Positions 16,106 through 30,989 of a stretch of 35,009 bases of DNA are shown here, piece by piece. The stretch's first letter is position 1, and every line of letters begins with the position of its first letter. This DNA comes from an uncultured Sphingomonas sp. (GTDB taxonomy: Bacteria; Pseudomonadota; Alphaproteobacteria; Sphingomonadales; Sphingomonadaceae), in NCBI RefSeq assembly GCF_946477935.1, contig NZ_CAMLAC010000013.1, positions 1 through 35,009 on the forward strand. The letters run 5' to 3'. A model generated the notes under the pieces. The model was not told the DNA's origin and searched no databases. It saw only the letters and a program-made list of their open reading frames with translations. The position numbers were made by a program, and so were the translations under genes.

Positions 16106-17005
16106 ATGGTTACTCTGCTCGCGGACACGAACGCGTTACGTCATCCTGGCTTAAAGGCCTACCTGCAAGCGTCGCGCGACCATGCGATCGCGCTGTCGGA
16201 CCTCATGTTAGTCGAGATGCGCAAGACCAGGGCGCTGTCGACGTCTCGGGAATCGCTGCAAATCGTCGCACATTATCCGCAGCAATCCTATGCCCTGCGC
16301 CGCACCCACGAGATGCTAGGCGAAAAGATCACTTCCGCAGAGCAGAGCCACGTCCTGTTCGACTATGAGGCCACGGCCCATCTGACAGATCTGTCTCGCC
16401 GGCTGCTGACGCTGCCGCCGCCAGCCGGCCTCGCCAAGGAGATGGCGCAGCTCGAGGCTGACGCACAGCTCATCGTGGCTCGGCTGACCGAGGAAGTGGC
16501 CGCGCTCGAGCCCGGACTGGTGTCCGCGGCACAGGACTTCACGCCGGCCGAGCTAACGCAGATTCGCACTATGAAGGACGTGACGGACAGCACGCGCCGC
16601 AAGCTCCTTGATCTTCTTAAAGAGACGACCGGCGGGTTCATCTTGCAGAACCAGGAGCCCCGCCGCCGCGCGCCGATGCTGCTGCGCGACACCATAGGCC
16701 AGTTCGCCTTCCGTTACTCGTTGTGCATGCTTCTTTACTACATGGAGTGGGTCCGCATCGGACGACAGACGGGCAAGAGGTTGCCGCTCCGCGTCAACGA
16801 CGTCGTCGACATGCAAGTCGCCGCCATGGGCACATACTTTAACGGCGTGCTGAGTGCCGACAGAAACCTTCAGATCGTCTCCAACACCGCGCGCGGTGTA
16901 TTGCGCGGTTTCGGCGCCTATGTGGGCGAGGACTGGCGCTTGCCGCGACCACCTCAGGAGACCGACGACGCCAACGGCGATGCAAGCCTGATCGATCCGA
17001 GTTAA
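16106..17005 (+). CDS. PIN-like domain protein paired with the SIR2 gene
   Basis: A 299-aa protein. The N-terminal VTLLADTNALRHPGL has the D-T-N motif of PIN nucleases (Asp7), followed by an acidic residue in DLMLVEMRK (Glu37). Near the C-terminus are NDVVDMQVAAMG (Asp232/Asp235) and GVLSADRNLQIV (Asp252), matching the remaining PIN acidic positions. A helical insert of about 190 residues separates the halves, much longer than in VapC toxins (about 130 aa in total). The gene ends 9 bp before the SIR2 gene and is almost certainly co-transcribed with it. I infer an RNase or regulatory role in the same system. No antitoxin-like partner gene is present. Confidence 0.72.
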   Translation: MVTLLADTNALRHPGLKAYLQASRDHAIALSDLMLVEMRKTRALSTSRESLQIVAHYPQQSYALRRTHEMLGEKITSAEQSHVLFDYEATAHLTDLSRRLLTLPPPAGLAKEMAQLEADAQLIVARLTEEVAALEPGLVSAAQDFTPAELTQIRTMKDVTDSTRRKLLDLLKETTGGFILQNQEPRRRAPMLLRDTIGQFAFRYSLCMLLYYMEWVRIGRQTGKRLPLRVNDVVDMQVAAMGTYFNGVLSADRNLQIVSNTARGVLRGFGAYVGEDWRLPRPPQETDDANGDASLIDPS

Positions 17006-17014
17006 ACCTCTGCC

Positions 17015-20000
17015 ATGCGCTTCCTTGCCAACGGTCCCTCGATTCCCGACGATCTTCTGATCGCGCGCGACGCGGGTGACGTCATCTTCTTCTGCGGCGC
17101 CGGCGTCTCCCGCCACCGCGCCGGGCTGCCCGACTTTCTCAAGCTCGGCGGCGACGTGATCGATCTCCTCGGCGCCGGCGACAAGAGTCTTGCCCGCAAG
17201 CTGTTCCGCCGGATCAATGAGCTCGACCCGATCGACGGCGTCGGCGGACTGATCGCCACCGATCGCATCTTCAGCCTGCTCGAACGCGAGTTCGAACAAC
17301 GCGATGTCCGGAACGCCGTTGCGCGCGCGATCAAGCCTGCGGACGATCCAGACCTCAGCGCGCACCGAACTCTGATCGACCTGTCGAGCGGCCGCGACGG
17401 AACGGTCCGGCTGGTCACTACCAATTTCGACTTGCTGTTCGAGGCAGCGGCGCCCGGGCTTGCCTGCTCCGGACCTCCGGTCCTGCCCGACCCGCGCAGC
17501 GCCGGCTTCGGCGGCATCGTTCATCTTCACGGGCGCGTGGATGCCGATTATCTCGGACCGGGCGACGAGGAGTTCATTGTTTCCAGCGCCGACTTCGGTC
17601 GCGCCTATCTGTCCGACGGCTGGGCGACGCGCTTCATGCAGTCACTGCTTGCCCGCTTCCAGATCGTCTTCGTCGGCTACGGCGCCGACGATCCGCCAGT
17701 TCAATATCTGCTTGAGGCGCTGAATCTCCACGCCGGCAATCGCAGCCGGCTGTTCGCCTTTCAGCCGGGCAGCAACGCGGACGACGCGGCGCTTTGGGAA
17801 CATCGGGGTGTGCGGGCAATCCCATTCGACAGCAGCCAAGGCTATGATCCCCTGTGGGACAGCCTCGCGGCCTGGGCCGAGCGCGCGCGCGACGTCGATG
17901 GCTGGTACGCCAGGCTGATTGATATCGCGTCCGCAGGGCCCGCCGAACTCGATCCGCATCTGCGCGGCCAGATCGCCCATATGCTATCGACCCGAGAAGG
18001 CGCCCGGCGTGTCAGCATCGCCGAGACACCGCTGCCCGCTTCATGGCTGCTCGCATTGGATCCACGCCAGCGGTTCGACAAGCCGGGTCTTATCGACCCC
18101 TATGGTGAATCCGGCGAGCGGATCGATCCTTATGAGAAGCTGGCGCTCGACTTCGACACGCCGCCGCAGCCGGTCGATGAGGACGACGCTTTTCGCGACC
18201 GGAAGGTGCCCGATGACACGTGGAGCGCCTTCGCGCCCACCCGCTTCGATCAGGAGGACGTACAGGAAACGGGGTTCGGCGACTTTTACGGCCACCGGGC
18301 AAATCTTGCCGGACCACTGAGCACTCGCCTCCACCATCTCGGCATCTGGTTTCACCGCGTTGCTCATCAGCCGGTCGCCCTATGGTGGGCGGCCGCGAAC
18401 GGTCCCCTCCACCCGCGCATCGTTGAGATGATCGAAGCATGGCTCCGCCAAGACCCGGATCGTTGGCCCGACGACATCCGACGCGGCTGGCGCTTCCTGA
18501 TCGCGAGCTGGTCCGATCGCCGGGTGGAACCCGACCAAGGCTATTTCGAGCTCAGCCAGCGGGTGGCGCGCGAGGGATGGTCAGAAGCGCGCGTACGCGA
18601 CTATGCAGCCCTCTTTCGGCCCCGACTGAAGGTCGACCGCAAGTTCGGGGTGCCGCATCCGCTCTCCTGGTCCGACAGCGACCGCCCGAACCCGCTGGTC
18701 GCCTATGATGTCGACTATCCGCATCCCTACGAGCTGCTGACCATTCCCGACGATCAGCTTGCCTATGCGACCACGCGCTTCCGCGAGAACCTCGACCTCG
18801 CCCGCTCAATCGAAGCCGAGATCTCCGGGCACGACCATGTCCATATGGAAACGACGCGGCCAGACGACGGCGCTCCCCCCATAGCCTATGACAGCTATGG
18901 GCTCACGGGCCCGATCGCGCTGTTCCTCCAGCTGATGGAGCAGCTGGTCGAAGTCTCACCCGAACTCGCCCGCAGCGAGATCGCCCGATGGCCGACGGAC
19001 GATCAATATATCTTCGGGCGCCTGCGCATTTGGGCGGCGAGCAATCCGATCGTACCGCCGGGGGAAGCGGCCGACATCCTGCTCGGCTTCCCCGACCACA
19101 CGTTCTGGAGTTCGGAGCAGCAGCGCGACCTTCTCTATGCGATCCGCGACCGCTGGCCAGACTTCGCCACCGAGGATCGGACGCGATTTGAGCATCGCAT
19201 CCTCACTACGACATTTCCTTGGTCCGACAGAACCCGCGGCGGAAAGGCCCGCGCGGCGGCTCATTATCGGCTCGATCGCCTGCATTGGCTGTCACGGCAT
19301 GATGTCGCTTTCTCGTTTGATGTCGAGGCGGAAATGGCGGCGCTTCGCCCGATCGCGGAAGGGTGGTCGGAGCGTTCCGGCGAGGAAGCGGCGGACTCGC
19401 ACGCGCCAGTGGTGCGCACCATCGACACCGACGCCGATCCGCGCGTGCTAGAACAGGTGCCGATCAGTGAGGTCCTCGAACGAGCCCGGCAGGCGGGCCA
19501 GTCCGACTTCTTCGACTTTGTCGAGCGCCGCCCGTTCAACGGCCTCGCCGAGCAGAAGCCCGCACGAGCGCTCGCAGTCCTTACGGATGCCGCGCGCAAG
19601 GGCGAGGTTCCGGTCTCCTTCTGGTCAGCCTTTCTTTATGCCGAGACGCGCAAGCATGATTCTATAAGGCTAACGCAGGCGATCGCCGGCCGCCTCGCAT
19701 CCCTGTCGCCCGATGCACTTAGCACCATCGCCTATCCGGCTGCCGAATGGCTTCAAGGCCTGGGCGAGCGCCTCTTCGCCGAACTCGCCGCAGTGCTGGA
19801 CTGCCTATGGGACCCACTCATGGCAGCGCTGCCGCTGCGCGACGACGACCGCAAGCACCGCGTCGACAGCAGCTGGGCGAACGATGCGCTGAACGCGCCC
19901 GCCGGCAAGCTCGCCAGCCTGCTCATGAAGGACCCGTCGACCAAGGGCCTCCCGTTCGGCCAAGGCTTCCCCGAAGATTGGACGCGCCGCCACGAACAGC

Positions 20001-20812
20001 TAATCGCGCTGCCGGGCGACATGCGCCGGCACGCGCTCGTGATGCTAGGATTCCAGATCAATTGGCTGTTCGCCATTGCCCCTGACTGGACCAACGCAAA
20101 TCTGCTTACTGTGGTAGATGACGAGGGCGATGATGGCGACGCGCTGTGGGACGGCATCCTCTGGGCGGCCCGGGCGCCGAGCCGAACGCTTTACGAGCGC
20201 CTGAAGCCGGGACTTCTCGCTCGGGCCATGTCGCCCATGCGACGCCGCGCCGAAGCCAATGTCATCGGCGGCTTCCTACTGATTGGCTGGGGCGGCGATC
20301 CCGATGCCGATCCGCCCGCGCAACTCGTCACCAGCGCAGAGCTGCGCGAGATCCTCGTTGAGAGCGATGATGATCTGCGCGGACAGATTCTGTGGCATCT
20401 TGAGCATTGGTCAGCGGACCACGAGGCCAAGTGGCGTGCGCGCCTCGTCAGGTTCCTAATCGACGTCTGGCCCAATCACCGGGCCCTCCGGACCCCGGAG
20501 ATATCCACCCGCCTCGTCGATCTCGCTTTGGCTAGCGGCGATCTTTTCCCGCAGGTCGTGCAGGCGATCTTGCCGCGGCTGGTGCCGGTGCGAGGCGGAA
20601 TGCTGCGTGGACTAACGCTTCGCTCGGAGGTCGGAAGCCATCCCGCGCTGGTTTATCCCGCCGCGATGCTCGACCTTCTCTGGGCGACCCTCGCCGAGGA
20701 TGCGACGCTATGGCCGTATAAGATTGAAGAGGTGCTGGACGTGCTTTCCGGCAGGCAGGAAACCCTAGCCGACCCCCGGCTATCGGAATTGCGTCGTCGA
20801 CGCGCTGGCTAA
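17015..20812 (+). CDS. Large SIR2-domain protein, probable defence effector
   Basis: A 1265-aa protein. The N-terminal sirtuin-fold NADase domain shows FFCGAGVSRHRAGLPDF (residues 26-41), the TTNFD motif (135-139), HLHG with the catalytic His (170-173), and GYGADDPPVQ (221-230). The remaining 950 residues are helical, rich in Trp, Arg and Asp, with no visible ATPase motif. They may correspond to DUF4020 or the sensor regions of Dsr-type proteins (from memory). Known defence-associated sirtuins deplete NAD+ on phage infection and cause abortive infection. That role is proposed here by analogy. There is no strong Shine-Dalgarno sequence, so it may be translated by coupling to the PIN gene. Confidence 0.88.
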   Translation: MRFLANGPSIPDDLLIARDAGDVIFFCGAGVSRHRAGLPDFLKLGGDVIDLLGAGDKSLARKLFRRINELDPIDGVGGLIATDRIFSLLEREFEQRDVRNAVARAIKPADDPDLSAHRTLIDLSSGRDGTVRLVTTNFDLLFEAAAPGLACSGPPVLPDPRSAGFGGIVHLHGRVDADYLGPGDEEFIVSSADFGRAYLSDGWATRFMQSLLARFQIVFVGYGADDPPVQYLLEALNLHAGNRSRLFAFQPGSNADDAALWEHRGVRAIPFDSSQGYDPLWDSLAAWAERARDVDGWYARLIDIASAGPAELDPHLRGQIAHMLSTREGARRVSIAETPLPASWLLALDPRQRFDKPGLIDPYGESGERIDPYEKLALDFDTPPQPVDEDDAFRDRKVPDDTWSAFAPTRFDQEDVQETGFGDFYGHRANLAGPLSTRLHHLGIWFHRVAHQPVALWWAAANGPLHPRIVEMIEAWLRQDPDRWPDDIRRGWRFLIASWSDRRVEPDQGYFELSQRVAREGWSEARVRDYAALFRPRLKVDRKFGVPHPLSWSDSDRPNPLVAYDVDYPHPYELLTIPDDQLAYATTRFRENLDLARSIEAEISGHDHVHMETTRPDDGAPPIAYDSYGLTGPIALFLQLMEQLVEVSPELARSEIARWPTDDQYIFGRLRIWAASNPIVPPGEAADILLGFPDHTFWSSEQQRDLLYAIRDRWPDFATEDRTRFEHRILTTTFPWSDRTRGGKARAAAHYRLDRLHWLSRHDVAFSFDVEAEMAALRPIAEGWSERSGEEAADSHAPVVRTIDTDADPRVLEQVPISEVLERARQAGQSDFFDFVERRPFNGLAEQKPARALAVLTDAARKGEVPVSFWSAFLYAETRKHDSIRLTQAIAGRLASLSPDALSTIAYPAAEWLQGLGERLFAELAAVLDCLWDPLMAALPLRDDDRKHRVDSSWANDALNAPAGKLASLLMKDPSTKGLPFGQGFPEDWTRRHEQLIALPGDMRRHALVMLGFQINWLFAIAPDWTNANLLTVVDDEGDDGDALWDGILWAARAPSRTLYERLKPGLLARAMSPMRRRAEANVIGGFLLIGWGGDPDADPPAQLVTSAELREILVESDDDLRGQILWHLEHWSADHEAKWRARLVRFLIDVWPNHRALRTPEISTRLVDLALASGDLFPQVVQAILPRLVPVRGGMLRGLTLRSEVGSHPALVYPAAMLDLLWATLAEDATLWPYKIEEVLDVLSGRQETLADPRLSELRRRRAG

Positions 20813-20849: not shown

Positions 20850-21611
20850 CTATCGCGGTGGCGGTGGAAGCGGGGCGGACATCAGCGGCTCGAAGTATCG
20901 GTCACAACCCGTCAGGCTTTCGAAGTCTGGATCATCGAATGTTACGATCCGACAGATGTGATTCGCCGGAATAGCCGCAAGCGCCCGATCGTGCGGCACC
21001 CCATCATAGGGGTGGCCAGCACGCCAAGCACAGAACTGGCGAGCGAAGTGGGATTCGTAACCCAAGCTGTCTTGGAAAAATGTGAAGGGAATTGCCGCTT
21101 CGACAACCGAACTCACCCCCACCGAACGCAGGACGGGCCCGAGGTCGGGGTCCCGGTCAATCGCGGCATAGAGTGCCTCTCCACCCCAGAACCGAAGAAA
21201 ATCCTCGACGCCGTCATCGTTGCACGGACGCGTGAAGAGGAACCAGATCCGTCCAGCCCGCGTCGGTGAGTGCGCTTGGTGACGAAGCCGGAATTGCGCG
21301 GCAATCTCCGACGTAAACGCGCCCGACGACACCGCCGCATCGATCCTTCTCATCAAGCTGTCGGCGCTTGGAAGATCCATTCCTTCCGCCAGAATGGACA
21401 CCCGCTCATGGACCATCAGACGGCTGCAATGCCACGCCAGAACGTCGTGTGGCCGCAGCAGCTCGCCCAGTCGCTCGACCACCCGGTCATACTGAAATCC
21501 GGTGGCGAAGCGCCGCGTAGTCGCCCAATCGTCCAGAAGATCGAGATGCTCGTCAAGGAGAGTGATAACCGTTGGCGGCCAACTTTCCGGGTGATCGTAG
21601 TCAACCAGCAC
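20850..21611 (-). CDS. Unknown protein, last gene of the minus-strand accessory operon
   Basis: A 253-aa soluble-looking protein with a GTG start preceded by GAAGG. It has no recognised motif. Notable parts are LLRPHDVLAWHCSRLMVHE, QFRLRHQAHSPTRAGRIWFLFTRP and a Pro-rich end. The composition is acidic with many His and Trp residues. It lies 68 bp downstream of the 206-aa gene, and its stop faces the SIR2 gene stop across 37 bp. It is placed in the same operon by strand and spacing. I do not know the family; the gene is accepted because it is long, uncontested and consistent in codon use. Confidence 0.7.
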   Translation of the reverse strand: MLVDYDHPESWPPTVITLLDEHLDLLDDWATTRRFATGFQYDRVVERLGELLRPHDVLAWHCSRLMVHERVSILAEGMDLPSADSLMRRIDAAVSSGAFTSEIAAQFRLRHQAHSPTRAGRIWFLFTRPCNDDGVEDFLRFWGGEALYAAIDRDPDLGPVLRSVGVSSVVEAAIPFTFFQDSLGYESHFARQFCAWRAGHPYDGVPHDRALAAIPANHICRIVTFDDPDFESLTGCDRYFEPLMSAPLPPPPR

Positions 21612-21679
21612 GGTTCGCCTTCACGTCTCAAGCAACCGCCGAGGAGGATCTGCGGGTCCAGATAGGGCACTAGGCGCGG

Positions 21680-22300
21680 TCATCGGCCTCGCGCCGCCTT
21701 GATCTCTTCCACCAGCCGATCCAGCGTGCTCCTCGCCGCATGGATACGATCGATCGCTAAGCCAAGCGGCTCGAGCGCAGCTTCCAGGTCTTCTTCCTCA
21801 AACCCCGCGCTCAGCGCTTCCTTGCTAACCGGGATCGTGAGAGCGACATCGCCGGTCTTGATATCACAGCGGAACCCTCGATCGACGAGCTCGTCGATCA
21901 GGGGTCCTTGCGACCTCAACAGCGCCTTCCAGTCGCGCTGGCCAAGGGCATCCGTGCTCGCCGCGAACCGGATACCAGCGCCAGCGAAGCCCGCGATCGT
22001 GCCGATCCAAGTCTCGGGCTCATGACCATCCAGGCAGGACACTGTGTCCAACACGAACGAGAGGTAGCAGTCATTCTCGTCTGATTCCGGCATGCGCCAA
22101 TCCTCGGGCGCGAACCATTGCGTCTCGTCAAAATCAGCCGGTGCCTCACCCGCCCAGCCTAGCGCACGCCGCTTGTCGTCGAGCAGGGCTGCGACGGCTT
22201 TCGCAAGCATGGGCTGCATCGTGCTGTGAGCGTATCGAAGGGCGGCCTCGAGCTCATCGATGTGGGTCACGATGACAGCGCCTACGGCGGGCTCCGGCAT
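21680..22300 (-). CDS. Unknown acidic protein next to the PD-(D/E)XK gene
   Basis: A 206-aa acidic protein (sections such as MPESDENDCYLSF and GFEEEDLEAALEPL) ending in a predicted helix (LDRLVEEIKAARGR). I recognise no domain. The ATG follows AGAGGAACTGATC and starts 12 bp after the nuclease stop, so it is in the same transcript. The acidic charge and position would fit an inhibitor or specificity partner of the nuclease, but nothing in the sequence proves that. Confidence 0.7.
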   Translation of the reverse strand: MPEPAVGAVIVTHIDELEAALRYAHSTMQPMLAKAVAALLDDKRRALGWAGEAPADFDETQWFAPEDWRMPESDENDCYLSFVLDTVSCLDGHEPETWIGTIAGFAGAGIRFAASTDALGQRDWKALLRSQGPLIDELVDRGFRCDIKTGDVALTIPVSKEALSAGFEEEDLEAALEPLGLAIDRIHAARSTLDRLVEEIKAARGR

Positions 22301-22312
22301 GATCAGTTCCTC

Positions 22313-23008
22313 TTAAAACGCTTGGACATGCGCGCCGAACGCGGCAATCATTTGCTGTACAAAGGACCGACCGACGACCGACGCACCGGCTGCCGTGGAA
22401 GCGGCGCGTGCAACGTCAGACCAGCTTGTCGATGACACGTCCGGCACGTTGGGCGAGAACGGCGCCAGCAACACGATCCGTGCCGATCGCTTCTGCAACT
22501 CAGCCCTCCGAAACACCGACGCCTTGTATCGATCGAGCTGATCGCGGCCGAGGCCGGCATGTATCTTCACCTCGATGCCGATCAGATGGACGCTAGTCTC
22601 GATGATCAGGTCTACCCGGTCGGCAGCATCCCCCATCGGACAGACTTCAGTCTCGACACGGTACCCCGTCCCCAGCGCCTCGAACCAATCCGTCGTTGGC
22701 AGCGCGGCGCGAAGATAGTGCGCCAGGAACATACTCGACGTCTCGCCCCCGAACTCGGTCATCCAGAGCCCGGCCAGCGCGCCCGCATTACGCACCTCAT
22801 CATGGCCCAAGCCCGCTAGCGACCAGGGATTGATGAGACCGCCCCGCGCCTTGGCGGTAGCGAGCGGGGCCCTCAGCGACTGGAAGGCAGATTGCAGGTC
22901 GCCGAGCGCGTAGAATTGCTTTGGGGCGCGAGGCTGACCAGTTGGCAACACGGCACGAAGAGCCAGGAAGGCGGCCTCGAGTGCATGAGCTTGAAGACCG
23001 TCAGCCAT
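22313..23008 (-). CDS. PD-(D/E)XK nuclease superfamily protein
   Basis: A 231-aa protein. The core motif is RVDLIIETSVHLIGIEVKIHAGLGRDQLDRYK: the metal-binding Asp133, the E-x-K pair Glu146/Lys148, and Gln157 in the following helix. That is the standard PD-(D/E)XK pattern as in PDDEXK_4 proteins. An upstream Glu (in YRVETEV) may be the helix-1 acidic residue. I use the ATG at 23008, which overlaps the protease stop by 8 bp; the track start at 23197 is an artefact of open frame inside the protease gene. It probably cleaves DNA as an effector in the module; specificity is unknown. Confidence 0.85.
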   Translation of the reverse strand: MADGLQAHALEAAFLALRAVLPTGQPRAPKQFYALGDLQSAFQSLRAPLATAKARGGLINPWSLAGLGHDEVRNAGALAGLWMTEFGGETSSMFLAHYLRAALPTTDWFEALGTGYRVETEVCPMGDAADRVDLIIETSVHLIGIEVKIHAGLGRDQLDRYKASVFRRAELQKRSARIVLLAPFSPNVPDVSSTSWSDVARAASTAAGASVVGRSFVQQMIAAFGAHVQAF

Positions 23009-23801
23009 ATTGAGCTCTTGCGCGGGCTTCGGCCGCCGCGACAACTTCTCGCACCAGGACTGCGGGCCATACGCGACCGAGTTGGGCGTCGGACGGGTCG
23101 TTGGTGTGAAACCGGCCCGAGTAGATGCCGATGAAGTTGACTGCGCCGTCCCCAGCTTCGATGCGGCCGTGCCCGTCCTCCAGCTCGATTTCGCCATGCG
23201 CTCTCTGGATGACCGGCGACCCCGACATGCCCGGCCGCGACGCAGTGTCCACGATCAGATATCGCTGGTGCTTGCTCGCGGTGAAGAACGGCTCACTTGC
23301 GAACGTTGCCTGTTTCCACACCGGCAGCCCGATGCCGAGGCGACCGAACGGATAGCCGAGGATGAAGATCGGCATTCCGATCCGCTGCTTGAGTGCCACG
23401 GTGCGCACGACGTTCATCGGCATTACCGAGGCTTCGCCAGGCGGCGGCAAATCCACGTCCAGAGCTGCGACGTCGACAGCGCGACCGTGTTGGGGATGCT
23501 CGACCCAAAGCGGCGCTTCGTCCGCGTCGATGGTCGGCACCCGAACGATCAGCGGCGGTCGATCCCGATCGTTCAAGGGGACGTGCACCCGCAGGTGATC
23601 CGGAATGCCGCCCTTCCTATGCGTGACCTCGTTAGTCTCGTTGTTGCGGCCGGAGACGACGTGCCAATTGGTCAGCAGGGACAGACGTCCGTCGAGCCGC
23701 AGCCACGGGAACGCCGTCGCACCTCCAAGAAGCTGTTCGCCGAAGAACGCCTCGACGTACAAGGGTACCAGCGAGCAGGTGTCGATCCCGGGCGCCGTCA
23801 C
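23001..23801 (-). CDS. Trypsin-like serine protease
   Basis: A 266-aa protein with a complete chymotrypsin-fold triad: His47 in LLTNWHVVSG, Asp110 in AVDVAALDV, and Ser192 in RPGMSGSPV. There is no signal peptide, so the protease is probably cytoplasmic, unlike DegP-type periplasmic proteases. Cytoplasmic trypsin-like proteases are known in bacterial conflict systems, where they activate or destroy partners by cleavage. The GTG start overlaps the recombinase stop as GTGA, and the stop overlaps the nuclease start. Its natural target could be one of the neighbouring proteins. That is a hypothesis. Confidence 0.88.
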   Translation of the reverse strand: MTAPGIDTCSLVPLYVEAFFGEQLLGGATAFPWLRLDGRLSLLTNWHVVSGRNNETNEVTHRKGGIPDHLRVHVPLNDRDRPPLIVRVPTIDADEAPLWVEHPQHGRAVDVAALDVDLPPPGEASVMPMNVVRTVALKQRIGMPIFILGYPFGRLGIGLPVWKQATFASEPFFTASKHQRYLIVDTASRPGMSGSPVIQRAHGEIELEDGHGRIEAGDGAVNFIGIYSGRFHTNDPSDAQLGRVWPAVLVREVVAAAEARARAQYG

Positions 23802-25033
23802 TTCAATCTCTCCAGAAGGCGGCCAACAGCACCGGCCTCGGCCGCGAGGTTACGGTTGTAGGCAAGTGGCATGCGCGGGCTCTTCCACCGCAAGGCGTCC
23901 ATGATCCCGGCAAGATCCTCACCGCTCGCGAACAGGTCCTGGTTCAGGCCGACCCGGGTCGAGTGCGCGCTCACTCCCTTCAGCAACCGCACGATATCGT
24001 CAGCGGTAAGATCGGCTAGCGCGCCGCTGTCGAATGCGCGTTGGATCATCGCCCGGTAGATGGGTCCGATGGAGGCGGGGTGAAGCGCGACGGAGCCGAT
24101 GTCATACTCGGTGCGAGCCGGCACTGCCGGCCGCGACAGCGTCTTGCGCAGGTCCCAGGTCTCCCGTGCCGTTATGCTGTCGATGCTCCGTCCCTTCACC
24201 GCAACCCGCGCCTTGTAACGCCGAACCTGCACGCGACGGAACAGCGGCCCTTGGCCTATGCCCGCTGCCTCGGCCCAGGCAGCGATTGCGCGTACCGATC
24301 GCGGGCTGAGGAATGCTGTCGCCCCCTCCCCTTCCTGATCGCCCTTGCTCCGCGGAATCACCAGCAGCCGCGCCTCGGGATCGAGCGCCTCCTGGATATG
24401 CTCGACCTCGATCGCGACCAGTTCGGAAGCGCGCAGGCCAGTGTCGTAAGCTACCGAAAGCAGCGCACGGTCGCGCAACCCCGGCAAATCGTCTGCGCAT
24501 GCCTCCAGAAGCCCCCTGATGTTGATCCCACGGGGTTTATCGCGCTCGATGTCTCGTACCGGCCCCTTGAAGCGCAGCGGGCGTGCCTGCGCCTGCGCGG
24601 TCCCCTTCTCCCGACGAATGGCGCGAAGTCGCAGCTTGACCAGCTCAGCCTGGGTCGGGTCCTTAAGGTCGAGCAGCTGGTGGATCTTGGCGATCGACGC
24701 CTTGTAGCGCGCCAGCGAAGCTGGCCGGCTGCCATTCCCGGCCCGCGCGTCGAGATAGTCGGCCACGGTTTCCGCAGCCGCTGGCACTGCGATCCGGTTG
24801 GCACGCCGGCACCACGCATCGAAGGCTTCGACATCGGATTTAAGCGCACGAATGCTGTGAGGTGACGAGGCCGCCTGATACGCCTTGATCAGCCCCTCGT
24901 TGATGACGATGCGGGCGCCGGCGCGCATTTGGACGATGGTCCAAGCGAGATCGTCCCCCGCCCCTGCCAGAGGGATACTCAGCGCCGTCGTCGTTGCGCC
25001 TATAGGCTTGGCGTCCTCAGACGGCGTCACCAT
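23798..25033 (-). CDS. Tyrosine recombinase (phage-integrase family)
   Basis: A 411-aa site-specific recombinase. An N-terminal SAM-like DNA-binding domain (SIRALKSDVEAFDAWC...ASLARYKASIAKIHQLL) is followed by a catalytic domain with Arg201 (TGLRASEL), Lys230 (PRSKGDQ), His357 and Arg360 (AHSTRVG), Trp383 in the second His position (RWKS) and the nucleophile Tyr392 (AYNRN). All catalytic residues are present, so it should be active. An insert of about 60 residues lies between FRRVQV and the HxxR box. It starts 7 bp inside the TIR-like gene and ends 4 bp inside the protease gene, so it is an internal member of the operon, not a terminal integrase of an island. Confidence 0.92.
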   Translation of the reverse strand: MVTPSEDAKPIGATTTALSIPLAGAGDDLAWTIVQMRAGARIVINEGLIKAYQAASSPHSIRALKSDVEAFDAWCRRANRIAVPAAAETVADYLDARAGNGSRPASLARYKASIAKIHQLLDLKDPTQAELVKLRLRAIRREKGTAQAQARPLRFKGPVRDIERDKPRGINIRGLLEACADDLPGLRDRALLSVAYDTGLRASELVAIEVEHIQEALDPEARLLVIPRSKGDQEGEGATAFLSPRSVRAIAAWAEAAGIGQGPLFRRVQVRRYKARVAVKGRSIDSITARETWDLRKTLSRPAVPARTEYDIGSVALHPASIGPIYRAMIQRAFDSGALADLTADDIVRLLKGVSAHSTRVGLNQDLFASGEDLAGIMDALRWKSPRMPLAYNRNLAAEAGAVGRLLERLK

Positions 25034-26283
25034 GGCTTCGCCATCTCGATAATCTGCTCAAGGGTGAACGGCTCCAACCCGTAGACCGCCGCCAATCCGT
25101 TGAACGCCTCCACGGCCACGCGCCGGATATCGGCCTCGTCGATCGAGGTAAGCGACGCAGCATACTCATAAGCGAGCTCGACGGCGGCATAGCCCTCGTC
25201 ATCGAACTGGAATGGGCCACGTGGCCACCAGCTATCTGTGAGGTTGGCGATACCGAGGCGGATGTGGAGCGGGAACGAACCGCCGTGCGCAAGGGCAAGC
25301 GCGCAGTTGCGCTCCAGAAAGTTCACCCACTGCTTGAAGAAATATCCGGTCGCTAGCGTGATCCGCTCGCCTTCGCGCTGGAAGAGAAAGCCCCCGCCTA
25401 CACCCCAGATTTCACCGGTCTTCTCGAACCATTGCGTGAGCGCACGGGTTGGATCGACGTCCCCTTCCGGCGTACCTGGCCAGTAAACCATGACGCCGCC
25501 TTGGCTCGCACCGTAGTTGAACGAATTGGCACGCGCGAGCAGTGCAGGATGACCCATATGCTCGGCTAGGGCGCGCCTAGCTCCCGGCTTTGCGGCCCAT
25601 TTCGAGGGGATGATGCGCGCGTAGCCGGGGAATTGCTGCTTCCACATGACCTTGCGGCTGCCATGGCTGCTCGTCACGATCTGCGGGACGTCTCGATCAA
25701 ACCAGAGGTCAAGGTCGCCGGCAAAATGCGGCTGCCACTGCACCGCTTCGGGCGGTGGCGCTGGGATCTGTTCAAGCGACAGCTTCAGCGCAGTCGCCAG
25801 CTGCCTGGTGAGCTCCCCGCGCACGCGCCGCAATTCGCCTGTATCGGCGCCCTCGGACAGATGAAACGCGATCGGGCCGCGCCTCCCCCGCATGTCGAAC
25901 GGCAGCTTGTCGAGCGTCGCGCCGGGGAATGCCGTGTTCCAGACCTGAATGACGCGAGAGTCGGTGAGCGCCCGGTTGGCGTAGCCCAACTCAAGCAGCA
26001 CGTTGGGATTGGCGCAGGCCTTCCCGGTCGCTGAGACGGCGATCGGCGTTACATCTCCGACGAACACCGCCGCGGCATCGATCTTCCGTAGAATGGTCGC
26101 GACGATATCGGGGGTTCCGGCGACGCCCTGGGTGTCGGATGTCAGGCTCGGCCGATCGGCTTCTTCGACCTCAGCCGATACGAGCGCGATCGCGGCGTCG
26201 AGCGCGAAGCGGATCAGCTCGCGCGTGACCCGCCCGTCGAGATCGCTTTGCCACGACCAGAAGACCGTCTTTTCCGCGCTCAA
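25027..26283 (-). CDS. TIR-like / nucleoside-deoxyribosyltransferase-like fold protein
   Basis: A 418-aa protein. Its N-terminal 150 residues have the pattern FWSWQSD (8-14), SDTQGVAGTPDIVATIL, VFVGDVTPI (with Asp77) and ANPNVLLELGYANRAL (Glu98 as likely catalytic Glu). This resembles the TIR-like nucleotide-binding proteins common in defence islands. The C-terminal 260 residues (WFDRDVPQIV, WPGTPEG, WWPRGPFQFD) are unrecognised and rich in Trp. It may cleave NAD+ or a nucleotide, or bind a signal molecule. The TTG start follows GAGGGGG. As first gene of the six-gene operon it is a candidate effector or sensor. The fold call is moderately sure; the activity is inferred. Confidence 0.75.
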   Translation of the reverse strand: MSAEKTVFWSWQSDLDGRVTRELIRFALDAAIALVSAEVEEADRPSLTSDTQGVAGTPDIVATILRKIDAAAVFVGDVTPIAVSATGKACANPNVLLELGYANRALTDSRVIQVWNTAFPGATLDKLPFDMRGRRGPIAFHLSEGADTGELRRVRGELTRQLATALKLSLEQIPAPPPEAVQWQPHFAGDLDLWFDRDVPQIVTSSHGSRKVMWKQQFPGYARIIPSKWAAKPGARRALAEHMGHPALLARANSFNYGASQGGVMVYWPGTPEGDVDPTRALTQWFEKTGEIWGVGGGFLFQREGERITLATGYFFKQWVNFLERNCALALAHGGSFPLHIRLGIANLTDSWWPRGPFQFDDEGYAAVELAYEYAASLTSIDEADIRRVAVEAFNGLAAVYGLEPFTLEQIIEMAKPW

Positions 26284-26442
26284 CCGCCCTGCCCCCTCAG
26301 CCCAGCTTGTAACGCACCTTATAAAGAATGGTCAATTCCGCTTGTGCGATAACTGCAATTATCAAAGGTTCACATAACGAAGGGTACGGACGAGGAAACC
26401 AACTGCTGACTTTGGTTTCTTCGCGTGGCATCGTCGTCGCCC
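26284..26442. promoter_or_regulatory. Divergent promoter region with two inverted repeats
   Basis: The 159-bp gap between the TIR-like operon and the RHE_PE00001-like gene is AT-richer than its surroundings. It has an 8-bp perfect inverted repeat GAAACCAA/TTGGTTTC (26395-26402 and 26412-26419, 9-nt loop) and a GATAA/TTATC pair (26348-26352 and 26359-26363). These could be operators for either gene. No clean -35/-10 pair stands out. Confidence 0.45.
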
Positions 26443-27384
26443 ATGACCCGCGACGACAACCCGCGCGCCGATGACGCATTGCTTTTGCTGGGGCGCCTAG
26501 ACGGCCGCTTGCAGGGTAGCACATGCGCAGACATCTTTCTCGCCCGTTCGCGTCTGGAGGGCGCATCTGCCCTCGCCGGCCTCGCCGGCGTGCCAATCGC
26601 AGTGAGAGACCTGCAGGACTGGATCGCGGGCCGCGCACCCCCTCCCCGCTCGTCGGAGGGCCTCAACGATCCGATCTCGGTTGCGGCCATCTTCCACATT
26701 GCTCTCAGCCGCGATGAGGATCTCAGCGACCCGCTCGCCCGCGCGACGCTGAATGCGCTGCGTTCGGTCTTGGACGATCGCGCTGAGGCGGAAACCTATG
26801 CGACGTCGGACCTCGCCCATTTCGGTCCACTTTGGCGGAAGGTGCGGGCGGCGGCAGACGCCCCCTTCCCTACCGGCGACATCCTCGGCGTCGCGGAACG
26901 GGTCTTCGAGCTGGCCGCATCCACCGAGCCAGCGCCCACAAGCGGATGGGATGTGGTTAGCCTCGATGGCCGGACGCTCAACCTTCCACCGCGCGATCGC
27001 GATCGAAACTGGCTGATAGCGGTCGCGGTGCCACGGATGCTCTACCGCGCCGGCTTCACCACGCAGGTCATCCCTTCTTGTATCCTGCTGCCAAAGTACC
27101 TGCCCCCCTCCCCTGTCGAACTCGCTACGCTGATGGTCCGGGCGATTGGCCGAACGGCTCTGACGGGGCTTCGGGAATTGGATTCCCTCGAACGTGCGGC
27201 GGCGCGCATCCAATTGGATCTTCAGGTCACGAAGCGGAGCAAGGCTCCCCTGCTCGCTCGGCTCCAGCTCTCCTACCCAGGACTTCAGCCTGCCGCGGTC
27301 GCGCGCCTGCTGAAGGTCACACCCCAAGGTGCCCGCAAGCTCCTGGCGTCGGCCTCGTTCGGGTCACGCCCAGTGCTGATCTAG
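26443..27384 (+). CDS. RHE_PE00001/DUF1612-like HTH protein
   Basis: A 313-aa protein beginning at ATG 26443 (MTRDDNPRADD). The N-terminal part ADDALLLLGRLDGRLQGS, followed by FLARSRLEGASALAGLAGVPI, resembles the plasmid-encoded RHE_PE00001/DUF1612 family of rhizobia and sphingomonads (from memory). The C-terminus has a helix-turn-helix, LQPAAVARLLKVTPQGARKLL. It probably binds DNA and may influence plasmid maintenance, since it lies beside the partition genes. Its stop overlaps the convergent parB end by 21 bp. The family call is moderate, the HTH call fairly good. Confidence 0.75.
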   Translation: MTRDDNPRADDALLLLGRLDGRLQGSTCADIFLARSRLEGASALAGLAGVPIAVRDLQDWIAGRAPPPRSSEGLNDPISVAAIFHIALSRDEDLSDPLARATLNALRSVLDDRAEAETYATSDLAHFGPLWRKVRAAADAPFPTGDILGVAERVFELAASTEPAPTSGWDVVSLDGRTLNLPPRDRDRNWLIAVAVPRMLYRAGFTTQVIPSCILLPKYLPPSPVELATLMVRAIGRTALTGLRELDSLERAAARIQLDLQVTKRSKAPLLARLQLSYPGLQPAAVARLLKVTPQGARKLLASASFGSRPVLI

Positions 27385-28377
27385 CACCGCCCGGATCGCC
27401 TCCTCCGCGTCCTGGCGAGATGCTCCGCCCTTGCTCAGCAGGGTCAAGCGGATGCCCTTCCGGTCGGCGCCCTCTATCCGGAGCACCGGCTTCCCGGTTG
27501 AACTGGAGACGGTCTCCGGCTTTCCTGACCTCTTGGGGGATCCTGACCTCTTGGGGGGGTCTGCCGCCAAGGTGAGCGCCTTGATCACATCGAGAACCGG
27601 CAACACCTCTCCGCTCGCCGCCTGCGCTTCGGAAAGTCGCGCTGCCTCCTTGTAGGCCCTCGCCTTACGGTCCTCCGGCTTCAGAAGCCCCTTAAGGGCA
27701 ATCGCGTTGCGAATGCCAAGATCCTGTGGATTCACGAACGCCCGGGTCAGCTCCTCTGGCAGGCGCGCCAGATCGAGGTAGCGGGTCAGCCAGCTCTCGG
27801 AGACCTTGAGCCGCTCGGCCATGGTCTTCTGGCGGCCATCGTAATAGGTGTCGAGCGCGCGCAGATAGTCCCTAGCCCGCTCAAGGTCAGTCAGGTCATC
27901 ACGAGCCCGGTTCTCGATGTCGGCGAGTCGGAAAGCTTCCTCGTCCCCGATTTCGCGCACATCGACCAGAAACTTGAAGTCAGGGTAATTGTGGGTTCTC
28001 AGCCAGCTGATCGACCAATGCCGCCGCGCTCCACAGATCACTTCGAAATCGAAGTCAGGATCGCCTGAGACTCGCCGCACGATCGCCGGCATCTCCTGGC
28101 GCCCCTGCGCCTTGATGCTCTCGATCAGATCCGCGCAGCGTTCCTCGGTAAGCAGCGCGTAGTCGCGGTTATGCCCTGCCCACATCCGGCAGCGCGCCGG
28201 ATCGACAAGTTCATGCGTACGATTGACGATCGCGCCGGAAGCAAGGTCCGCAAGCCTATTTGAGCGCCCCGTCAGCACGTTTGAAGCGAGGCCCGAGCGA
28301 CGCGGCGGCGGAGTTTCCTCGGACAGATCGATGCCCGCCGCCAGATCGGCCGCAAAGCCGGTGTTTTTCCTGCTCAT
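27364..28377 (-). CDS. parB: ParB, plasmid partition protein
   Basis: A 337-aa centromere-binding CTPase. The N-terminal ParB/Srx domain holds the nucleotide-binding motif CGARRHW (115-121), and the central HTH lies around KTMAERLKVSESWLTRYLDLARLPEEL. The C-terminal third is variable and contains two KRSG repeats (PPKRSGSPKRSGK) encoded by a tandem 18-bp DNA repeat that matches the plasmid iterons. The protein presumably loads at the parS palindromes just upstream and in front of parA. The ATG follows AGGGAGG. The gene converges with and overlaps the RHE_PE00001-like gene by 21 bp. Confidence 0.96.
   Translation of the reverse strand: MSRKNTGFAADLAAGIDLSEETPPPRRSGLASNVLTGRSNRLADLASGAIVNRTHELVDPARCRMWAGHNRDYALLTEERCADLIESIKAQGRQEMPAIVRRVSGDPDFDFEVICGARRHWSISWLRTHNYPDFKFLVDVREIGDEEAFRLADIENRARDDLTDLERARDYLRALDTYYDGRQKTMAERLKVSESWLTRYLDLARLPEELTRAFVNPQDLGIRNAIALKGLLKPEDRKARAYKEAARLSEAQAASGEVLPVLDVIKALTLAADPPKRSGSPKRSGKPETVSSSTGKPVLRIEGADRKGIRLTLLSKGGASRQDAEEAIRAVLDQHWA
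27523..27557 (-). repeat. Two iteron copies inside parB
   Basis: TCCTGACCTCTTGGGGG occurs at 27523-27539 and at 27541-27557 (18-bp step). On the minus strand each reads CCCCCAAGAGGTCAGGA, differing from the oriV iteron CCCCCAATCGGTCAGGA at two adjacent bases. The tandem encodes the KRSG repeats of ParB in frame. Confidence 0.85.
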
Positions 28378-28456: not shown

Positions 28457-29659
28457 TCACGCCAGCGCAGCCTTGCGCAACGCTGCCTGATGGCTTGGCC
28501 ACATCGACCTGATATCGACTTCGATCTCCGCGTTCACGCCGTCGAGATAACCAAGGCAGCGATTGCGAACGGCCGAGCTGGTCGCAGGGCCATCAAGCTC
28601 ATACACGGTCATCAGCCGGGCGGTTGCATTATCGATCTCAGCCGAATCCTTGAGTGGTGTCCGCACCATCGCATGCCCGAACAGCGTCCGCATCAGATGC
28701 AGCAGTTCCTTTTGCATCGACTTGTTCTCGTCGACCTTGGAACCGACGAACCGCAGAAACTGAAGCTCCGGCGCCAAACCACGCTCCGCCAGCTGCTCGA
28801 TTGTCTCATCGAGCATCGACAGGAATGCCGCCGTTGACGAGAAATCCATGACCGTCGGCGGCACCGGAACGACCAAGGCGTTCGCCGCGCGGAGGACCGA
28901 CAGCGAGATCGCGCCCAGCGCCGGCGGCGGATCCATCACGATCACGTCGAACCGATCCGAAATGCTCTCGATCCCCTCCTTCAAGCGGTCGAGGAGTCCG
29001 TCGCTTCCCCGCGCCATGCGCGCGGCCAGTTCATACTCCGAGTTGAACAGCCGGAGGTTTGCTGGGATCAGTCCCAGGCCATCGAAATGCGTCTTTCGCA
29101 GCGCGTAATCGAGCGATAACCGCTCGCCCTCCCGCAGGAACGGATAGAGCGTATCGTCCTCGCCGAGGTCGAGATCGGGAACGTAGCCGAACAGCGTCGT
29201 TGCCGAAGCCTGGCTATCGCAATCGACAAGGGCAACGCGATAGCCTCGGATCGCCAGATATTGGGCAAGGTGGACCGCTACCGTGGACTTGCCCACCCCG
29301 CCCTTGAAGTTCTGAACGGCCACGACACAGCACGGATCACTTGCCGCCCGATAGGGACGGGTCCCAAAGACGCCTCGCATGTCGTTCAGCTGAGCCAGCG
29401 TATATCGTTCGCGTCGATTGGTGTCGGTCCGTGATGGCTCGGGAAGGCGCCCGTCCTTCTCCGCATCGCGGATCGCCGCCGGCGTTCGACCCACCAGCTC
29501 GGCCGCCTTGCTGATCGTGAAGGTCGGCTCGCGCCGGTCATCAGCCCGCGCACTACGGGCTGAATCGCGCAGCTTCTCAAGCACTGACGAAGTTCGACTG
29601 GCAAGCGTCGCAACCGAGACGATCCGCTCGGCTTCCTCTATCTCGAGTCCGTTAGCCAC
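28457..29659 (-). CDS. parA: ParA, plasmid partition ATPase
   Basis: A 400-aa Walker-type ATPase. The N-terminal region (about 48-100) has a MerR-like HTH (ISKAAELVGRTPAAIRDAEKDGRLPEP), as in type Ia ParA proteins that repress their own promoter. The ATPase core has the deviant Walker A FKGGVGKST (118-126), Walker A' VALVDCDSQASATTLFG and Walker B VIVMDPPPALG. The start is a GTG after AAGGTAGG. It is encoded between repA and parB, all on the minus strand. A parS-like site lies upstream in the repA-parA gap, consistent with autoregulation. Confidence 0.96.
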   Translation of the reverse strand: MANGLEIEEAERIVSVATLASRTSSVLEKLRDSARSARADDRREPTFTISKAAELVGRTPAAIRDAEKDGRLPEPSRTDTNRRERYTLAQLNDMRGVFGTRPYRAASDPCCVVAVQNFKGGVGKSTVAVHLAQYLAIRGYRVALVDCDSQASATTLFGYVPDLDLGEDDTLYPFLREGERLSLDYALRKTHFDGLGLIPANLRLFNSEYELAARMARGSDGLLDRLKEGIESISDRFDVIVMDPPPALGAISLSVLRAANALVVPVPPTVMDFSSTAAFLSMLDETIEQLAERGLAPELQFLRFVGSKVDENKSMQKELLHLMRTLFGHAMVRTPLKDSAEIDNATARLMTVYELDGPATSSAVRNRCLGYLDGVNAEIEVDIRSMWPSHQAALRKAALA

Positions 29660-29828: not shown

Positions 29829-30989
29829 TCAGGGACGTCCCCGACGGTTGACCCAGCCCTCGCAGAACCCCTTCCAAGAGGCGACCATCTTGGCACCTCG
29901 GAGCTTCCCAAGGCGCTCACCCATATGCTCGCGGTAGGCATCCGCGATCATGTTGATGTCCCAGCCACCCCCGTGTGCACGGCCGATGGCCAGGAGTTCA
30001 TCCTCGCCAAAATGAAGCGACCCTCGCGGGAACGTCTTTTCCTCCGGCTTGGCTTTGGGAAGAAACTTCGTTGGCGCCGGAATCTTCCCCTGCCCTGCCC
30101 CCGCAACGCTCACCGTCTCCACGCTACCGTCACGCCGCGCTTCGCGTCCCGATGAGTGCCGATTTAGCTCGTCCACCGTCTCGATAACCTCGGGTGCGCC
30201 CTTTGGCTCGAAGCGGAACTCCAGCTCGGTGACCGTCCGCCCCTGCCGAACCTCCCGCCACTCCACCCTGAAATGGGCCAGCTGATCGATTTCAGCCTTC
30301 GCCTTTTCCAGCACCTTCCGCCGCAACTGGGCGAAGTCCGCATAGACCTCCGGCGGAATGCCCAGCGCGGCGCGGAGCGCTTGCATGTCACCCTTCCATG
30401 TGGCCTGCCGCCGATGCAGTCGGAGTGCGCCAAGCTCATAAAGCTTTAGGGCGTAGCTCGATCTGAAGCCAAGAACGGCCTGCCGGTTGAGCACCGCATA
30501 GGTCTCGGAAGCCTGAATGAGCTTTCGCGCGTCGGGCGTGAACTCCCACTCGATCCAGCCCGCCTCGCCACCGTCCTCTTCGCTCTCCTCGCGCGACCGC
30601 GAGATGAGCGAGAAGCGCAGCGTCGCCTTTTTCCCTCGCCAAGATTTGTCGTCGACGGCGAACAGCGTGCGATGGAGCTCCTCCAACATGTCGCTGATAC
30701 GCTCATTGCCCTTGTGACCCCGGCGGATGTCCGCCTTGCGCATGCGATGCGGACGATCCTCCCAGGCATCCCCGCCCGCCGTCAGGATCATCAGCGCAAG
30801 CAATCGCGAGGCTGTCAGACTAAGAGACTCGCCCTTAACGAATTTAACTTCGATGATGCTACCTGGTTTAGCGAATTGATCGCCACCTTTGGCCTTCAGC
30901 GCGGCCGCAACTCGCATCGCACGACCTGGCGATGCTTCCTCGCCGGTCAGGTGTACCGCCTCATCTATTTGGCCAGCGTCGGTTTCCAT
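29829..30989 (-). CDS. repA: RepA, iteron-type plasmid replication initiator
   Basis: A 386-aa initiator with a Rep_3-like double winged-helix layout. WH1 includes LSLTASRLLALMILTAGG and the RISDMLEELHRTLFAVDD region; WH2 includes LKLYELGALRLHRRQATWKGDMQALRAALGIPPEVYADFAQLRRKVLEKAKAEI in several pieces. The C-terminal extension (FGEDELLAIGRAHGG...VASWKGFCEGWVNRRG) is common in alphaproteobacterial RepA proteins. It would open the origin at the iterons upstream and repress itself through the inverted repeat at 31033-31066. The ATG at 30989 has no obvious Shine-Dalgarno sequence, so expression may be low. It heads a repA-parA-parB unit. Confidence 0.92.
   Translation of the reverse strand: METDAGQIDEAVHLTGEEASPGRAMRVAAALKAKGGDQFAKPGSIIEVKFVKGESLSLTASRLLALMILTAGGDAWEDRPHRMRKADIRRGHKGNERISDMLEELHRTLFAVDDKSWRGKKATLRFSLISRSREESEEDGGEAGWIEWEFTPDARKLIQASETYAVLNRQAVLGFRSSYALKLYELGALRLHRRQATWKGDMQALRAALGIPPEVYADFAQLRRKVLEKAKAEIDQLAHFRVEWREVRQGRTVTELEFRFEPKGAPEVIETVDELNRHSSGREARRDGSVETVSVAGAGQGKIPAPTKFLPKAKPEEKTFPRGSLHFGEDELLAIGRAHGGGWDINMIADAYREHMGERLGKLRGAKMVASWKGFCEGWVNRRGRP

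Follow-up and report, generated by a model that had tools for sequence, protein, structure and literature searches.

A mosaic gene cluster around an Xer-like plasmid recombinase of Sphingomonas with probable, swappable defence genes

The six-gene cluster analysed here is probably a mosaic accessory cluster that was built around the plasmid's own Xer-like recombinase and holds swappable defence genes. The five other genes are interchangeable and probably anti-virus genes, which gather round the recombinase in differing combinations. The cluster points to a recombinase locus of plasmids at which genes with a probable defence role enter and leave the recombinase operon. The window, that is the whole stretch of 35,009 nucleotides that was analysed, is a sphingomonad plasmid.

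Layout of the six genes and their plasmid setting

The six genes lie on the reverse strand and code for a TIR-like protein (TIR, 25027-26283, TTG start), a recombinase (INT, 23798-25033), a protease (PRO, 23001-23801, GTG start), a nuclease (NUC, 22313-23008) and the proteins G5 (21680-22300, 206 amino acids) and G6 (20850-21611). The first-pass annotation had described overlaps of 7, 4 and 8 bp followed by gaps of 12 and 68 bp, and the open reading frames agreed with this. The 8-bp overlap is obtained with the ATG of NUC at 23008; the longest NUC reading frame begins at 23197. The catalytic residues expected for the recombinase, the protease and the nuclease were all found in the sequence, and those of the protease and the nuclease are invariant in the aligned homologues. 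For the protease His47 had been named correctly, but the active-site serine is S193 and not Ser192. When the window was compared with the copy on a Sphingomonas paucimobilis plasmid, dN/dS was 0.10-0.23 in all six genes, which indicates purifying selection. Since independent homologues also exist for each of them, the six genes are not chance reading frames.

For these comparisons, genomes were sampled as one per species from larger groups. Genes in the fetched loci were called with a simple ORF heuristic and checked by profiles, and the neighbouring genes were identified from Pfam, PADLOC or the record annotation.

The plasmid backbone of the window includes a ParB partition protein (27364-28377) and a ParA/RepA-type partition ATPase (28457-29659), which were assigned by profile matches, and a replication initiator homologue (29829-30989), all on the reverse strand. 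The latter was assigned by similarity and is 76-83% identical to annotated replication initiation genes adjoining parAB. A RHE_PE00001-like gene with a possible HTH (26425-27384, forward strand; NCBIfam NF040876, E=2.4e-7, below the cut-off) is divergent and lies on the far side of a dif-like palindrome from TIR and INT, a position repeated in many plasmids. Farther out, the window contains a Toprim-domain gene, a strawberry-notch-type NTPase and an F-type conjugation cluster. A Dsr1-like SIR2 gene (17015-20812, forward strand) is convergent with G6; the N-terminal ~350 residues of its product fit Dsr1 best, and the total score was 326.8 bits at a cut-off of 1400. An orphan gene for a 299-aa protein (16106-17005) ends 10 bp before it.

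The recombinase is a plasmid backbone gene

INT matched Phage_integrase with E=3.4e-10 and NCBIfam XerD with E=5e-12, the latter below the equivalog cut-off. The catalytic residues R201, H357, R360 and Y392 are present with W383 at the H/W position, as in the R..H-x-x-R..(H/W)..Y set of Xer-type tyrosine recombinases, and K230 is a candidate for the lysine. At E<=1e-60 relatives were found in 68 plasmid records, and at E<=1e-30 in 58 of the 401 sampled genomes of the family. About 70 sphingomonad plasmids carry INT, and most of them lack the other five genes. In most loci it adjoins rep-parAB and the divergent gene, and most of the examined loci have no gene between the divergent gene and INT. 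The region 3' of INT holds varying cargo, for example transposons and metal-resistance genes. INT is a backbone, or housekeeping, gene of these plasmids.

The dif-like palindrome (26342-26369) has a layout of 11+6+11 bp with the inner part GATAA-TTGCAG-TTATC on the strand of TIR and INT. In most loci the control region that precedes INT or TIR holds a near-symmetric element with the consensus ACATGTGATAA-TTGCAG-TTATCACATAA. Its conserved core occurs there once per locus in most loci and was absent from shuffled sequence; in the window the ATAA-N6-TTAT core is present in a single copy at 26349-26362. Published dif sites agree with the palindrome in the 11-6-11 layout and in the inner bases (PMC10132070). 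We favour the reading that the palindrome is a candidate recombination site of INT; alternatively, it is a candidate operator. An Xer-type tyrosine recombinase, the ATAA-N6-TTAT core and the 11-6-11 layout are shared with Xer/dif and with plasmid dif-like systems. Unlike in Xer/dif systems, the recombinase is plasmid-encoded here, the arms of the site are near-symmetric and a single site is placed in the control region of an operon.

TIR accompanies INT or NUC

TIR proteins of the CAP12/PycTIR type, like PD-(D/E)XK nucleases, are characteristic components of prokaryotic immunity. The TIR of the window has a putative CAP12/Pycsar-type TIR at its N-terminus and ~220 C-terminal residues that matched no assigned family. 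On its own it matched CAP12-PCTIR_TIR with E=0.081, which is below the cut-off, but all 12 aligned homologues matched this family (PF10137, best E=1.8e-4) and E98 is invariant in them. By profile it may belong to the subfamily (PF10137) of CBASS Cap12 and Pycsar PycTIR, with the window protein itself below the cut-off. It differs from these effectors by the longer C-terminal region of no assigned family and in that no cyclase is among the six genes: neither the six genes nor the scanned neighbours matched a cyclic-nucleotide synthase (CD-NTase, PycC). A TIR paired with ThsA was not found: PADLOC gave no match to Thoeris, and the SIR2 protein encoded nearby, in convergent orientation, is Dsr1-like. 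Profile searches of the PDB with TIR and NUC returned nothing.

Every one of the 13 close homologues of TIR (at least 64% at the amino acid level) lies beside INT and/or NUC. Ten are directly upstream of INT, two are directly upstream of NUC and one is a truncated copy just downstream of INT. TIR pairs either with INT, or with NUC-G5-G6 where INT and PRO are absent. On the INT tree about 6 gains or losses of TIR were counted (bootstrap 4-6), at least 2 of which are forced by strong branches. A single inherited clade of TIR and INT was considered as well and found no support in this tree. In two loci, L195 (7023-7661) and L197 (8807-9226), TIR carries different, independent in-frame internal deletions with junctions near residues 104/337 and 121/368, respectively, and INT is intact directly downstream. 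The shortened TIR beside an intact INT fits a retention of INT and perhaps its translational coupling.

NUC and G5 form a pair, and G6 joins it in some loci

NUC matched PDDEXK_4 with E=6.6e-8, and D133, E146 and K148 are invariant in 9 homologues. It is distantly similar to the PD-(D/E)XK nuclease candidate PDC-S26 of PADLOC. Each of the 23 distinct intact NUC genes that were found has G5 immediately 3' of it, and in both loci where G5 is missing (L156/L196; L195) NUC is broken or truncated. NUC and G5 are apparently an obligate pair, and they resemble toxin-antitoxin genes in their strict adjacency and in that no intact NUC occurs without G5. The two genes make up an undescribed, seemingly obligate unit with a wide distribution in Sphingomonadales. 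In 19 of the 23 loci the pair occurs without TIR and G6. Its neighbourhoods contain HipA, type I R-M, GmrSD, AbiEii and Zac-like genes; in Erythrobacteraceae (L150-L155), HipA is commonly followed by NUC-G5 and then by ZacA/ZacB-like or type I R-M genes.

G5 and G6 matched no family of Pfam, PADLOC or PHROG and nothing credible in NCBIfam. The AlphaFold2 model of G5 had a pLDDT of 93 and no match in the PDB by Foldseek (best probability 0.15). The G6 model was poor (pLDDT 70). Its top 12 Foldseek matches were all KptA/Tpt1, with a probability of 0.77 and E=0.1 for the best one and TM values of 0.2-0.3 for this low-confidence model. We take this as a weak hint of an ADP-ribosyltransferase-like (KptA/Tpt1) fold, which is only a lead. 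G6 accompanies NUC-G5 in four loci, follows INT directly in AntQ-1 and occurs elsewhere without the other five genes. When genomes across the class were searched, only 4 more had a G6 relative. In viral contigs NUC had no relatives and G6 had two distant ones. Downstream of G6, a pair of genes for an AAA ATPase and an S8 peptidase (92-94% identical) was observed in two otherwise different loci (L002:17681-21165 and L194:1435-4919).

The genes meet in different combinations and have different ages

The complete set was found only in the window and, in the same order, on one S. paucimobilis plasmid. The first-pass annotation had asked whether all six genes travel together. They do meet beyond this replicon, but all six were found together in these two plasmids only. 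Five of the families adjoin one another in several subsets and in defence-rich neighbourhoods that include type I R-M, GmrSD, HipA, AbiEii and a Dsr1-like SIR2 gene. The first-pass annotation had not recognised the combination as a described system, and searches of PADLOC and NCBIfam likewise gave no named system, only weak matches to PDC candidates. No paper on it was found in a literature search that ran mostly outside subscription journals and without preprints.

The window and the S. paucimobilis plasmid were then compared along the cluster. Inside INT, near codon 213, pS drops from about 0.67 to 0.26, stays near 0.27 across PRO, NUC and G5 and climbs again in G6. The mean pS was 0.61 for TIR and G6 versus 0.27 for PRO-NUC-G5 (0 of 2000 permutations). 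Between the two plasmids, identity is only 50% for parA and 41% for parB. In this plasmid pair a recently exchanged block, consisting of the 3' half of INT, PRO, NUC and G5, is located inside much older flanks. The pS pattern and the divergence of the par genes suggest that the six genes, even where they are together, were exchanged in pieces. Tight gene overlaps do not prove that genes form one system, as overlapping neighbours here have demonstrably different histories.

The order TIR-NUC-G5-G6 without INT or PRO was found in two diverged loci (L148/L194; L193), and these four genes are best read as the nearest to a core. They might be a defence system of four genes in its own right that came to lie at INT loci, with INT and PRO as interlopers. 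In L148 the stop codon of TIR and the start of NUC share 1 bp, and the same four genes are present, interrupted, in the window and in S. paucimobilis. We regard this as possible but doubtful, since most TIR homologues have no NUC, most NUC-G5 pairs have neither TIR nor G6, and the pS of TIR and G6 is far above that of NUC-G5 between the two six-gene copies. In addition, a dif-like site with 3 mismatches lies upstream of TIR in L148, as if INT had once been present there and then lost.

A further reading, which we judge rather unlikely, is that TIR-NUC-G5-G6 is an undescribed defence system that plasmids have wired to their dimer-resolution recombinase by translational coupling, with PRO as an optional second layer of activation. 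It would combine a TIR enzyme and an ADP-ribosyltransferase-like protein with a PD-(D/E)XK nuclease that has an obligate regulator of its own.

Some observations sit less easily with the preferred mosaic reading. The same six-gene order in two plasmids and the recurring adjacency of TIR, PRO, NUC and G6 leave room for a functional unit, and TIR is almost always translationally close to INT, so INT could matter to TIR. A Sphingomonas panacis plasmid (L011:3438-7801) carries an analogous operon of a non-homologous TIR_2, INT, a protein without assigned family and PRO, in which INT is only 41% and PRO 69% identical to the window counterparts.

The protease is an optional module

PRO is a stand-alone trypsin-like serine protease (Trypsin_2, E=8.6e-10) with H47, D110 and S193 invariant in 10 homologues. 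It is distantly similar to the protease candidate PDC-S45 of PADLOC (E=9e-9), and a PDB profile search gave one marginal match only, SplE. PDC-S26 and PDC-S45 are separate candidates in PADLOC, where G5, TIR and G6 had no match. Close copies of PRO were found in the window, in S. paucimobilis, in S. panacis, in L156 and in L089, where the copy is cut by the contig end; EP60837 has a PRO remnant directly after INT. PRO is beside only 2 of the 23 intact NUC genes and is an optional module.

The first-pass annotation had proposed a multi-step system with an effector that is activated by proteolysis. Such activation cannot be the general mechanism, because PRO is missing at 21 of the 23 loci with an intact NUC-G5 and at both loci with TIR-NUC-G5-G6. 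In a single defence system, TIR would sense or signal, PRO would cleave and thereby switch on NUC or G5/G6, and INT would be an integral part. Hachiman and AVAST provide a known case of a pro-nuclease activated by a protease (Tuck et al. 2025, PMC12799240), and the six-gene order is kept in two plasmids with different par genes. We still consider such a system quite improbable, since TIR-NUC-G5-G6 exists without PRO and INT, NUC mostly lacks the protease, INT is mostly alone, and where the full set occurs its genes are of different ages.

The nuclease-protease pairs of Hachiman, AVAST, Lamassu and DRT share with our locus a trypsin-like protease gene adjoining a nuclease gene, and they were repeatedly acquired by unrelated systems (PMC12799240). 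Their nuclease is of the metallo-beta-lactamase type and their protease is fused to HamA, Avs or LmuA. Here, in contrast, NUC is of the PD-(D/E)XK type, PRO has no sensor fusion, and NUC is mostly without a protease and always with G5. As to a HamM-type nuclease, NUC matched PDDEXK_4 and no MBL family, and the two neighbouring proteases among 23 loci do not indicate co-inheritance.

A model for the cluster

In the mosaic reading, INT, the dif-like site and the divergent regulator-like gene would serve plasmid upkeep, probably multimer resolution. The swappable genes flank INT, with TIR upstream and PRO, NUC-G5 and G6 downstream. The accessory genes most likely defend the plasmid and the host cell from phages or rival elements. 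NUC would be a DNA-degrading effector that is restrained or assembled by G5, and TIR would be an enzyme that consumes nucleotides or signals. G6 is perhaps a second effector, similar to ADP-ribosyltransferases, and PRO would be an optional addition that may tune a partner or activate it, but only in those loci that have PRO. The gene content, its modular make-up, the pairing of NUC with G5, the mosaic divergence and the persistence of INT beside decayed TIR genes were observed directly; the defence activity, the biochemistry and the order of events during infection are what we infer from them.

The divergence pattern of the one plasmid pair suggests that the cargo spreads through homologous recombination, with INT and its flanks as the anchors. 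That INT itself moves the cargo at dif-like sites, like the dif modules of Acinetobacter, would agree with the 11-6-11 site at the cargo edge (PMC10132070) but is hardly likely, since there is one site per locus, none was found at the far end of the cargo, the window has a single site instead of cargo between two, and the divergence breakpoint is inside the INT gene, as expected for homologous recombination.

Mobile and restriction genes were also seen next to the recombinase. In L090, L094, L099 and L106 a TniABQ-type transposon is inserted upstream of INT or TIR, at most about 180 bp away. They adjoin INT as the res-site hunters of the Tn5053 family adjoin resolvase sites (PMC7765201), with the difference that the neighbour is a serine recombinase in the Tn5053 case and a tyrosine recombinase here. 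Restriction-modification-like genes (c49/c50) precede TIR-INT in L089 and L136; in L105, where TIR is absent, they precede INT.
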